Positions 59,939-64,000 of a DNA stretch of 64,000 nt are shown in pieces (the first letter of the stretch is position 1; every line of letters begins with the position of its first letter). Made by a program: the position numbers and the translations under genes. A model generated the notes under the pieces. The model made no database searches. It was not told the origin of the DNA and saw nothing but the letters and a program-made list of their open reading frames with translations. The stretch covers positions 62,001 through 126,000 of the forward strand of contig JAIXTP010000034.1 in the NCBI GenBank assembly GCA_027483895.1. The letters are read 5' to 3'. This stretch comes from Hyphomicrobiales bacterium (GTDB taxonomy: Bacteria; Pseudomonadota; Alphaproteobacteria; Rhizobiales; Beijerinckiaceae).

Positions 59939-60607
59939 ATGATGAACGAATTGCAACCGACCGCCCGAAACGCGGGGCCCGCCGAAGCTCTGGAGGCCAT
60001 CCTCGAAGCCGTTCCGCATTGCCGGATCTGCATCGAAAGCCCGCGCGGCCGCCCTCTGCCGCACGCGCCGCGGCCCGTCCTGCGCGCGTCCGCCACGGCC
60101 CGCATCATGGTCTGCGGGCAGGCGCCCGGCACGCGCGTCCATGCCTCCGGTGCGCCCTTCACCGATCCCTCCGGCGTGCGTCTGCGCTCATGGATGGGCA
60201 TCGGCGAGGACGTCTTCTACGACGTCGCGAAGGTCGCGGTCGTGCCGATGGGCTTCTGCTTCCCCGGCCTCGACGCGAAGGGGTCGGATCTCCCCCCGCG
60301 CCGCGAATGCGCGGCCGCTTGGCACGACCGTCTGTTCGCTCTGCTGCCGCGACCCGGCATCATCCTCGCGGTCGGCACCTACGCCCAGCGCTACCATCTC
60401 GCCCGCCTAGGCGCCGCCGAACTCCTCCGGCCGACCCTGCACGAGACGGTCGCGGATTGGCGAGCCGTCCACGCGGCCACGGGCGTCATGCCGATGCCCC
60501 ACCCCTCTTGGCGCAACAATGCCTGGATAAAGCGGAACCCGTGGTTCGACGAAGAGCTGGTCCCCTTCGTCCGCGCCGAGGTCGTGCGCATCCTCGCCTC
60601 GAGCTGA
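59939..60607 (+). CDS. Uracil-DNA glycosylase superfamily protein
   Basis: The 222-residue product has CRICIESP near the N-terminus, the active-site strand MVCGQAPGTRVHASGAPFTD (about 58-77) and the late motif MPHPSWRNN, which correspond to UDG superfamily motifs A and B. It belongs to an uncharacterised UDG-like branch, so base excision activity is likely but not certain. Two adjacent ATGs (59939, 59942) are possible starts. Confidence 0.85.
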   Translation: MMNELQPTARNAGPAEALEAILEAVPHCRICIESPRGRPLPHAPRPVLRASATARIMVCGQAPGTRVHASGAPFTDPSGVRLRSWMGIGEDVFYDVAKVAVVPMGFCFPGLDAKGSDLPPRRECAAAWHDRLFALLPRPGIILAVGTYAQRYHLARLGAAELLRPTLHETVADWRAVHAATGVMPMPHPSWRNNAWIKRNPWFDEELVPFVRAEVVRILASS

Positions 60608-60755
60608 AGCGCGCGCCGGAACTCCCCCGAACGCCGAACGGTTGTGAATGCGAACCGCGCTGCGGGGCCACGACGGCGCCATGATTTCGCCATCCGTCGT
60701 TCAGGCCGGGTTCAAGCGCGCGGACGTCTCCTGAGGTTGACCCGAGGAGGACCGC

Positions 60756-63038
60756 ATGCCCGCTCGCCGACCGCTCGTCGCCTTGTTCTTCGCTCTTTGC
60801 ACGGTGCTGGTCGGCTGGTCCGCCGGCGCCGAGGCCCAGCAACGCCGCATCGCCCTCGTCGTCGGCATCTCGTCCTATCCTGACGGGACGCTCGCCACGC
60901 CGGTCAACGACGCCGCGCTCGTCGCCGAAGCGCTCGGAAGCGCCGGTTTCGAGATCGTCCAAGGCGCCGATCTCGACGAACCCGGCCTGCGCCGGGCGGT
61001 CCGAGACTTCCTCGACCGGGCCCGCGCCGCGGGCCCCGACGCCGTCGCGATGGTCTATTTCGCCGGACGGGCTGCGCAGCTCGAGGGCGACGATTTCCTC
61101 ATCCCCGCCGGAACGCGGATCGAGCGTGCGGAAGATCTGCCGCTTCCGGGCTTCCGCGTTTCCGATCTCGTCCGCTCGCTGGGCGAGGGGCGGGGGCTTC
61201 GCATCCTCGTGCTCGATGCCGCGCATGAATTGCCCGGTGCGGCGGGCGACACGCTCGCGCCCGGCCTCGCCGCCCTCGAAGCGCCGAAGAACTGGCTCGT
61301 CGCGCAATCGACGCTGCCGAACCTGCTCCTGCCCGAAACGGAAGGACCCTACGGCACCTACGCCAAGGCGCTGGTCGAGATGATGCGCGTTCCGGGCCTG
61401 AGCCTCGACGAGATGTTCGCCAAGATCCGCCTGCGCGTGCACGAAGGCAGCGGCGGCGTGCAGGTGCCGTGGCACGACGCCTCGGTGGAAGGCGTCGACT
61501 TCGCCTTCTACGACGCGGAGGACGCGGCCGTCGTCCGCGAGGTGCCGCGGCCCGCTCCGGCGCGGCGCGTCATCGCCGATCGTCCGTTGCGGGCGCTGGG
61601 CCCGGAGGAGGGCTATTCCGTCGTCATCGAGCGCGACGAGATCCCGCTCTATCAGGATTATCTGACGCTCTACCCGGAATCACCCTTCGCGCCGCGCATC
61701 ACCGCTCTGCTGACGGTGCGCCGCGAGTCCGTGATCTGGCGCCAGTCGCGCCGCTACGACACGCGCGAGGCCTATTGGACCTATCTGCGCCGCTATCCGG
61801 ACGGCTTCCACGCCTATGATGCGCGCCGGCGCCTGTCGCGGCTTTCCGCGCCGCTGCTCCCGCCGGACCGCTTCGACATGGTCGAATATGCGGGCCTGCC
61901 GCCGCCGCTCGCGATCGTGGAGCGGTCGGAGCCCCGCGTCCTCGTGCAGAATTTCTACATGCTGCCTCCACCGCCGCCCCCGCCGGTCGTGCTGCTGCCG
62001 CCGCAGCCGCGCGAGATCGTCGTACTGCAGCCGCCTCCGCCCGCCGCGGCACCGGGCGTACTGCCCGTGCCCGTGGCCGTTCAGGCTCCGCAATGGGCCA
62101 AGCGCCGCCCGCCTCCGCCCGAACCGGTGATCATCAAACCCGCCGTGGCGCCGCAGCCAGCCCCGCCGATCCAGCCGCGCCGCGCCCCGACGCGTGTCGT
62201 CTCTCCCGATGCGCGGCCGCAGCCCGACGCCTCGGCCCCCGCGCCGGTCGGCGTCGCGCCCCGCCCGCAGGCCGCGCCGCAACCGGCGCCGGCCGACGAG
62301 CGGAATCCCGCCCGCGCGGCCCCGCGCCCCGTGGCCCCGCGCGAGGCGGCGCCTGTGGTCGAAGACCGCGCCGCGCCGAAGCCCGGCACGGCGCAGGACC
62401 GGACGCCGGATCGTCCTCGTGCGGGCGAGGATCGACGGCCCGACGCTCCGCGTCAGCCCGCCGCCCGGACGCCGGCTTCCGATCCCGAGAGCACTGGCGC
62501 GACCCGCCCGGCCGACCGGACGCGTCCCGCCGAGGGCCCGCGCCCCGGCATCGCGCCGCGTCCCGAGAATGCGCCCGCCCGCACCGCGCCGAAGCCCGGG
62601 GACGGCCCCCGCCGCGACGAGCGCGGCGCTGCGCCCGAGCGTCCGGATCGTCCCCGTGCGGCCGCCCCGCGGCCCGATGCGCCCCGCGCTCTGCAGGATC
62701 GTCCGGAGCCGCGCGCCGTGCAGCGGCCCGAGCCTCCCCGCGCGGCGCCCGCCCCCGTCCGTCCGCGCGGGCCCGACCCCGAGGTGACGGGTTCGCGGGC
62801 CGCCCCGCCGCCGGCGCAGATGCGCCGGCCGGAACCGCCCCGCGCGTCGGCTCCTCCGCCGGACATGCGTCGCCCGGAACCCCCGCGAGCGGCCCCGCCC
62901 GCGCCGGCCCCCGCGGTCGCCGCTCCCCGGGCCGAGCCCCCGCGCCCTGCGCCGCCGCGTGCCGAACCGCCCAAGGCGCAGCATCCTGCCCCCAAGGGCC
63001 CGCCCTGCGGCGTCCCCGGCAAGCCGCCCTGCGGGTGA
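60756..63038 (+). CDS. Secreted caspase-fold protein lacking the catalytic dyad, proline-rich tail
   Basis: The 760-residue product has a signal peptide (about 1-27, ending GAEAQ) and a caspase/peptidase C14 domain (about 30-250: RIALVVGISSY, LATPVNDAALVAEAL, VYFAG, LVLDA). The usual catalytic His (YFSGHG) is Arg105 (YFAGRAAQ) and the usual Cys (LDACR) is Ala156 (LDAAHE). Residues 250-390 hold a repeat-like segment (DYLTLYPESPFAP, TYLRRYPDGFHAYDA). From about 405 to the end it is Pro/Arg/Ala-rich with RRPEPPRA-type repeats, closing PPCGVPGKPPCG. It is probably periplasmic, binding rather than cutting. Confidence 0.88.
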   Translation: MPARRPLVALFFALCTVLVGWSAGAEAQQRRIALVVGISSYPDGTLATPVNDAALVAEALGSAGFEIVQGADLDEPGLRRAVRDFLDRARAAGPDAVAMVYFAGRAAQLEGDDFLIPAGTRIERAEDLPLPGFRVSDLVRSLGEGRGLRILVLDAAHELPGAAGDTLAPGLAALEAPKNWLVAQSTLPNLLLPETEGPYGTYAKALVEMMRVPGLSLDEMFAKIRLRVHEGSGGVQVPWHDASVEGVDFAFYDAEDAAVVREVPRPAPARRVIADRPLRALGPEEGYSVVIERDEIPLYQDYLTLYPESPFAPRITALLTVRRESVIWRQSRRYDTREAYWTYLRRYPDGFHAYDARRRLSRLSAPLLPPDRFDMVEYAGLPPPLAIVERSEPRVLVQNFYMLPPPPPPPVVLLPPQPREIVVLQPPPPAAAPGVLPVPVAVQAPQWAKRRPPPPEPVIIKPAVAPQPAPPIQPRRAPTRVVSPDARPQPDASAPAPVGVAPRPQAAPQPAPADERNPARAAPRPVAPREAAPVVEDRAAPKPGTAQDRTPDRPRAGEDRRPDAPRQPAARTPASDPESTGATRPADRTRPAEGPRPGIAPRPENAPARTAPKPGDGPRRDERGAAPERPDRPRAAAPRPDAPRALQDRPEPRAVQRPEPPRAAPAPVRPRGPDPEVTGSRAAPPPAQMRRPEPPRASAPPPDMRRPEPPRAAPPAPAPAVAAPRAEPPRPAPPRAEPPKAQHPAPKGPPCGVPGKPPCG

Positions 63039-63045
63039 AACGAGA

Positions 63046-63079
63046 AAAGGCCGCGGATCCCCTCCGCGGCCTTTCTTTT
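63046..63079 (+). terminator. Rho-independent terminator after the caspase-like gene
   Basis: AAAGGCCGCGG and CCGCGGCCTTT form a perfect 11-bp stem with a 7-base loop, followed by CTTTT. It starts seven bases after the stop and is the clearest intrinsic terminator in the window. Confidence 0.9.
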
Positions 63080-63138: not shown

Positions 63139-64000
63139 TTACTTCGTCAGCCGGGCGATCAGCGCCGAGGTGTCCCAGCGGCCGCCCCCGAGTTCCTGCA
63201 CGTCGCCGTAGAACTGGTCGACCAGCGCGGTGACGGGCAGATGCGCCCCGTTGCGGCGGGCCTCCGCGAGGCAGATGCCGAGGTCCTTGCGCATCCAGTC
63301 GACGGCGAAGCCGAAGTCGAACTTGCCCGCATTCATGGTCTTGTAGCGGTTCTCCATCTGCCAGGACTGCGCCGCGCCCTTGGAGATCGCCTCGATCACC
63401 GCTTCCGCGTCGAGGCCCGCGCGCTGCGCGAAGGCGATGCCTTCGGAAAGCGCCTGCACGAGGCCCGCGATGCAGATCTGGTTGACCATCTTGGTGAGCT
63501 GGCCGGCGCCCGACGGCCCGAGCCGCTTGCAGGCGCGGGCGAAGGCCATGATGACGGGTTCCGCCGCCGCATAAGCGTCCTCGTCGCCGCCGCACATGAC
63601 GGTCAGCACGCCGTTCTCCGCACCCGCCTGTCCGCCGGAGACGGGGGCGTCGACGAAGTTCAGGCCGCGCTTCTTCGCTTCCGCATGGAGTTCGCGCGCC
63701 ACCTCGGCCGAAGCGGTGGTGTTGTCGACGAAGACCGCGCCCGGCTTCATGCCCGCGAAGGCGCCGTCGGGGCCGAGCACCACCGCCCGCAGGTCGTCGT
63801 CGTTGCCGACGCAGGCGAAGACGAAGTCGCAGCCCGCCGCGGCCTCGCGAGGCGTCCGCGCCGCGGTGCCGCCGAACTGCGCGGCCCATTTCTCGGCCTT
63901 GGCGAAGGTGCGGTTGTACACGGAGAGGTCGTGACCGCCCTTGGACTTGAGGTGGCCGGCCATGGGGTAGCCCATAACGCCGAGCCCGAGAAACGCGACT
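63139..64000 (-). CDS. 3-hydroxyisobutyrate dehydrogenase-family oxidoreductase (partial, cut by window end)
   Basis: The frame runs off the right edge; its visible N-terminal part reads VAFLGLGVMGYPMAGHL, the NAD-binding GxGxMG motif, so only a few residues are missing. Further motifs are VDNTTASAEVAREL, DAPVSGGQAGAENG, GAGQLTKMVNQ with the catalytic Lys, and KDLGICLAEA. Family members oxidise 3-hydroxyisobutyrate, tartronate semialdehyde or similar acids; the substrate is not clear. At least 286 residues are visible. Confidence 0.9.
   Translation of the reverse strand, partial: VAFLGLGVMGYPMAGHLKSKGGHDLSVYNRTFAKAEKWAAQFGGTAARTPREAAAGCDFVFACVGNDDDLRAVVLGPDGAFAGMKPGAVFVDNTTASAEVARELHAEAKKRGLNFVDAPVSGGQAGAENGVLTVMCGGDEDAYAAAEPVIMAFARACKRLGPSGAGQLTKMVNQICIAGLVQALSEGIAFAQRAGLDAEAVIEAISKGAAQSWQMENRYKTMNAGKFDFGFAVDWMRKDLGICLAEARRNGAHLPVTALVDQFYGDVQELGGGRWDTSALIARLTK

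Follow-up and report, generated by a model that had tools for sequence, protein, structure and literature searches.

Structure of the gene and its product

The window analysed here is a 64,000-nucleotide stretch of contig JAIXTP010000034.1 from a Hyphomicrobiales bacterium of the family Beijerinckiaceae (assembly GCA_027483895.1). Its forward strand holds an open reading frame at positions 60756-63038 (ATG at 60756, stop at 63038), which encodes a 760-residue protein whose translation comprises four parts: a signal-peptide-like start, a caspase domain, a pair of tetratricopeptide-repeat-like (TPR-like) helical repeats, and a low-complexity tail (Table 1). The two catalytic residues of the caspase domain are replaced, and the tail ends in a pair of cysteines that recurs among the relatives of the protein.

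Table 1. Features of the pseudo-caspase gene, its product and its immediate surroundings (positions in the window)
Feature	Position	Strand	Evidence or remark
Upstream uracil-DNA glycosylase superfamily gene	59939..60607	+	PF03167, E 1.9e-23; near the orthologue in 8/23 loci
Shine-Dalgarno-like AGGAGG	60745..60750	+	5 bases ahead of the ATG; read by eye
Signal-peptide-like N-terminus, residues 1-27	60756..60836	+	hydrophobic core, AEA then QQRR
Caspase (Peptidase_C14) domain, residues 30-242	60843..61481	+	PF00656, E 1.5e-25; MALT1 and caspases by profile
Asp52, first acidic pocket position	60909..60911	+	D in 115/115 sampled relatives
Arg105 at the catalytic His position	61068..61070	+	alignments with MALT1 and with orthocaspases retaining His-Cys
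Asp154, second acidic pocket position	61215..61217	+	D in 115/115 sampled relatives
Ala156 at the catalytic Cys position	61221..61223	+	alignments with MALT1 and with orthocaspases retaining His-Cys
Two TPR-like helical repeats (..YxxYLxxYP..), residues 285-365	61608..61850	+	half-to-half resemblance
Low-complexity Pro/Ala/Arg tail, residues 391-760	61926..63035	+	composition; relatives' tails rich in Pro, Gln or Gly
C-terminal two-cysteine cap CGVPGKPPC (C751, C759)	63006..63032	+	conserved in relatives
Terminator-like hairpin 3' of the stop	63046..63074	+	shuffles of the region average 0.8 such sites; weak alone
Downstream convergent hydroxyisobutyrate-dehydrogenase-like gene	63139..63975	-	PF03446/PF14833; near the orthologue in 9/23 loci, >400 bits

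A reading made earlier from the sequence only had described a clear caspase fold in which the catalytic His is replaced by Arg105 and the Cys by Ala156, and our analysis bears out each of these points. PF00656 covers residues 30-242 with 90.7 bits against a cut-off of 21.4, and is matched in all 50 members of our core alignment. The closest solved sequence relative is the paracaspase MALT1 (e.g. 3v4o), which differs in being an active human signalling protease with a His-Cys dyad; the match spans the domain's first 150 residues, with an E-value of 0.001 for the window protein alone and 3.9e-10 for the family profile, and positions ~168-226 of that profile align with the small-subunit regions of caspase-3 (E 0.0015-0.004), which bears on the p10 domain that bacterial pseudo-orthocaspases are described as lacking. 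In the MALT1 alignment YYAGHG stands opposite YFAGRA and LDMCRK opposite LDAAHE, and orthocaspases of related genomes that retain the His-Cys (HC) dyad give an identical register, so that the His and Cys of other C14 proteins fall on Arg105 and Ala156. No intact His-Cys dyad was found elsewhere in the domain, and neither Cys nor His is invariant in 50 diverse cores. The protein thus lacks the dyad of active C14 peptidases and agrees with bacterial pseudo-orthocaspases in having a p20 domain in which one or both dyad residues are substituted. A search of NCBIfam with the window protein gave no match.

Comparison of the core with that of the same-genus L034 (360 codons) yields a ratio of non-synonymous to synonymous substitution rates (dN/dS) of 0.21, which indicates that the frame is under purifying selection. 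A decaying pseudogene is ruled out by this value together with the pocket conserved across 115 relatives. The signal peptide of the earlier reading stands as a signal-peptide-like N-terminus, recognizable from its hydrophobicity and AxA motif, and the window protein is probably exported; a hydrophobic stretch precedes the caspase domain in 112 of 114 family members.

Loss of the catalytic dyad among relatives

A core match at E<=1e-10 is present in 258 of 397 genomes of the bacterial family; in 182 of these it reaches E<=1e-50, and 76 have only weak matches. From 142 loci that were read we obtained 134 proteins free of repeats, 115 of which belong to the protein family at a threshold of at least 200 bits, while 19 are further caspase-domain proteins outside it. 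Loci L001, L020, L021, L027, L029-L032, L036 and L048 were left out as repeats of counted places, and six caspase-domain proteins (L178, L183, L186-L189) stand outside the counts.

The nucleophile Cys is absent from every one of the 115 members, its position being occupied by Ala (102), Ser (4), Gly (4), Thr (2), Glu (2) or Pro (1). The His position is more varied, with Tyr in 61 members, Arg in 19, His in 18, and Gln, Val, Leu, Ile, Phe, Asn, Ala, Gly or Glu in the other 17 (L082 has an unidentified residue beside this position, and its 'G' there is unsure). The Arg-Ala combination is found in all three sampled genomes of the window's genus; L031 and L032 come from same-genus metagenome-assembled genomes labelled Hyphomicrobiales, with 'pond' in their names. 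Among the 19 proteins outside the family 18 are HC, and the nineteenth (L025), scored 'HA' via an apparent one-residue alignment slip, is HC by eye.

In a tree built on 220 columns, with the dyad excluded, the 115 pseudo forms make up one side of a branch with a Shimodaira-Hasegawa-like approximate likelihood ratio test (SH-aLRT) support of 100. This tree requires no fewer than 24 letter changes at the position of the His and no fewer than 13 at that of the Cys. The split and the change counts suggest that the nucleophile was lost early in the sampled group and that the site then drifted; the caspase fold has apparently turned non-protease once within this group. The gap between the two sets is partly due to sampling, as most of the 115 were chosen for matching the window protein best, and the 19 for matching the Pfam profile best. 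In addition, a divergent pseudo form (L178, 98 bits) lies outside the group of 115 and could represent a second loss. Judged from the sampled sequences, a large family has lost the cysteine as a fixed trait, and the window gene is no oddity in this respect. The case is of interest as a caspase fold made non-protease, with the nucleophile gone for good and the substrate pocket kept.

The divergent protein itself (L178:1217-3367), a dyad-less caspase-domain protein, is Cys-rich in its middle, where CPxGF-like units are repeated, and carries the end-cap described below. In another genome (G296) two adjoining pseudo-caspase frames (L114:5782-11075) probably represent a tandem duplication.

Pseudo-orthocaspases of Rhizobiales with long featureless C-termini have already been described (Klemencic et al. 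2019, PMC6426788), and Asplund-Samuelsson et al. (PMC3501461) had noted that substitutions in the dyad are numerous in Alphaproteobacteria. The window protein belongs to this published class; the Arg-Ala combination of its genus is unlike the common dyads named there (YA, YS or HA; PMC6426788), a comparison made with the published description only. SyOC from Synechocystis sp. PCC 6803 is likewise a pseudo-orthocaspase and has a knock-out phenotype, but it is cyanobacterial, and its mutant is described as better tolerating oxidative stress (PMC7889975); for the family studied here we found no experiment of this kind.

Conserved pocket and TPR-like repeats

MALT1 has an Arg-binding pocket, and in the family studied here two acidic pocket positions, Asp52 and Asp154 of the window protein, are both Asp in 115 of 115 members. 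These were matched to the pocket residues Asp95/Asp211 of the T. brucei protein TbMC2 via the NDx and Dx[C] motifs, not by structural superposition. According to PMC6426788, the pocket Asp residues of T. brucei MC2 are conserved in pseudo-orthocaspases, including those of Rhizobiales, as they are in the window protein.

There are 25 invariant columns in the 50 diverse cores, and because Cys, His, Ser, Thr and Lys are all missing from them, nothing points to a replacement nucleophile. That the caspase fold has acquired another active site, as a hydrolase or some other enzyme, for which the kept pocket may still bind substrate, is improbable: the His and Cys positions vary freely, and none of these five residue types is ever invariant.

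Ten of the 25 invariant columns sit in the 81-residue TPR-like part. Its two halves resemble each other with a mean z of 5.3, and z exceeds 2 in 92% of 50 sequences. Matches to PF13525 (YfiO/BamD) are weak, being found in 15 of the 50 core-alignment members with a best E-value of 1.7e-4, and the window protein has none.

The low-complexity tail and its two-cysteine end

The long proline-rich tail of the sequence-only reading is present and measures 370 residues (391-760), among them 112 Pro, 68 Ala and 51 Arg; the PEPPRA repeats were found in three copies, counted by eye in the translation. What that reading called a terminal PPCG pair is the cysteine pair C751/C759 within the C-terminus PPCGVPGKPPCG, a feature conserved among relatives. 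The tails of relatives are variously Pro-, Gln- or Gly-rich. The DNA encoding the window tail has a guanine-plus-cytosine (G+C) content of 82%; that high G+C accounts for the abundance of Pro in the tails is unsupported, as across relatives the Pro fraction does not correlate with the G+C content of the locus (Spearman 0.02, p=0.83).

Analysis of 99 complete tails reveals a simple pattern: in 70 a Cys pair lies among the final 17 residues, 25 are free of Cys, and four (L082, L083, L094, L106) fall into neither class, their ends being, by eye, apparently frame-shifted or unfinished; a tail with exactly one Cys was never found (0/99). The loop between the cysteines of the 70 capped tails is most often 5 (34 tails) or 7 residues long (28), less often 9 (5), 6 (2) or 8 (1), and the common forms are CGxPGxPxC and CxPGxPC. 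The cap state requires at least 8 changes on the tree, compared with 18-25 in 30 shuffles. Because both cysteines are gained or lost together in tails otherwise free of Cys, a disulfide is suggested.

We also looked for the cap at the DNA level. The pattern CGxPGxPxC-x-stop has 31 matches in the 397 family genomes, whereas its reversed form has 1. Thirty of the 31 were read as loci: they include two chance short frames (L144, L151), one contig end (L145) and three proteins with WXXGXW repeats, and the others of the thirty end a pseudo-caspase or, in cut frames, a tail of similar composition. Across the order (297 genomes) the same pattern has 6 matches, with 1 for the reversed one; four of the 6 come from outside the family, and all four are chance short frames.

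A literature search for an earlier mention of such a tail or cap gave nothing relevant-looking beyond PMC6426788, whose main text does not contain the word 'disulfide' and which, in the part consulted, mentions neither TPR-like repeats for this dyad nor a two-cysteine cap. The end-cap is genuine and apparently undescribed, and within a published class of proteins it is this feature that looks new.

The same end on WXXGXW-repeat proteins

In three genomes of genus g27 (G028, G118, G177) the CGxPGxPxC cap ends a WXXGXW-repeat protein that has no caspase domain. These capped proteins (L179:5978-7249, L180:4329-5735, L181:4163-5674) possess signal-peptide-like starts; PF12779 was found in the two that were scanned, and the third was assigned by eye. 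Relatives occur in 20 of 248 genomes searched. Among 20 WXXGXW proteins with an intact end the cap is present in 7, all from g27, and a shorter two-cysteine end in 2 further g27 proteins, while the other 11 (one from g27) have none. The tails of the WXXGXW proteins likewise hold 2 or 0 Cys.

The g27 protein (PF12779) thus resembles the window protein in its low-complexity tail with the CGxPGxPxC end and differs in its unrelated N-terminal domain, so that a ten-residue end is common to two unrelated disordered-tail proteins. Either convergence for stability or a common receptor would explain the shared cap; transfer between similar low-complexity tails is possible. We tentatively suggest, as a conjecture that we consider somewhat less probable than its negation, that the disulfide-closed Pro-Gly loop (CGxPGxPxC or CxPGxPC) could be a portable module placed at the very end of long disordered tails on unrelated exported proteins of this bacterial family, serving as a docking or sorting end or as a plug against C-terminal proteases. 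If true, the pseudo-caspase would be one of several envelope binding proteins on capped tethers, and a real module of this kind would give disordered exported proteins a new type of signal or protection at their ends.

The same observation bears on a structural interpretation, according to which the product is an envelope protein working via its TPR-like pair and tail, with the caspase fold a relic. The sharing of the tail design with an unrelated protein and the presence of 10 of the 25 invariant columns in the TPR-like part both favor it, but the caspase fold and its pocket are retained in every sampled member, with PF00656 matched throughout the core alignment, and we consider this interpretation rather unlikely.

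Proposed function

Since the pocket is kept and the nucleophile lost, the fold is best read as a binding module, and the invariance of the acidic pocket in all 115 members strengthens the binding or scaffold role proposed in the sequence-only reading. A role of this kind in the envelope appears to be the best reading of the window protein. The more specific proposal, to which we give an even chance, is that of an exported, non-cutting pseudo-orthocaspase that binds basic peptides and has a TPR-like second surface and a disulfide-capped tether. The protein would be secreted, as its N-terminus suggests, and its caspase fold, with an acidic pocket but no nucleophile, would bind peptides or protein segments containing Arg or Lys without cutting them. 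The TPR-like pair may provide a second protein-binding surface, and the long disordered tail would act as a tether with its end closed as a small disulfide loop, a pairing to which the 2-or-0 pattern points. More speculatively, this loop might dock the tail or shield it against C-terminal proteolysis in the envelope.

Several observations weigh against this proposal. The same Asp pair is present in HC forms (18 of 20 aligned rows) and could be kept for folding; hydrophobic N-termini are also found in 18 of 19 HC relatives, so that export would not set the dead forms apart; and 25 of the 99 relatives lack the cap, which is thus dispensable in some versions. An AlphaFold2 model calculated from three sequences (window, L031, L032) was unusable, with a mean predicted local distance difference test (pLDDT) score of 38.7.

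Dead caspase homologs may also act on active ones, as cFLIP-L does on caspase-8, a precedent discussed in PMC6426788, and HC orthocaspases are indeed present in many relatives' genomes. In the window genome (93% complete), however, the only C14 domain is that of the window protein itself, and the single C14 match is likewise a pseudo form in eight more genomes (in all G000, the window's, and G001, G002, G009, G018, G023, G024, G027 and G029, drawn from the window genome and a 60-genome survey). A regulator or decoy of an active caspase is accordingly an improbable role for the protein.

A photosynthetic function, published as a hypothesis for the pseudo-orthocaspases of phototrophs (PMC6426788), would agree with the occurrence of reaction-centre genes (PF00124) in the window genome and in both same-genus genomes. 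Such genes are present in 126 of the 397 family genomes, and their distribution does not follow that of the pseudo-caspase: 59 genomes have both, 123 only the pseudo-caspase, 67 only the reaction centre and 148 neither, which corresponds to an odds ratio of 1.06 (p=0.83, only a guide, as the genomes are related). Leaving out the 76 genomes with weak matches gives 59/123/48/91 (p=0.72). Contrary to the published proposal, phototrophy is thus not associated with the pseudo-caspase across the window's bacterial family, and we regard a photosynthetic role as very improbable here; the comparison constitutes a direct negative test of this role in one bacterial family. The reaction-centre genes of the window genome lie at G000:C2:82274-83032, with two PF00124 matches.

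Genomic neighborhood

Besides the two flanking genes listed in Table 1, the surroundings of the window gene include CobS and CobT, named from their translations, and a histidine kinase. In a sample of 23 loci with longer flanks, some of them cut by contig ends, the kinase (>370 bits) is found near the orthologue in 9 and CobT in 6. The recurrence of the same neighbors at orthologue loci suggests that the window gene resides in an old, vertically inherited housekeeping neighborhood, which says little about the function of the pseudo-caspase. The uracil-DNA glycosylase gene stays close to the pseudo-caspase in several genera.
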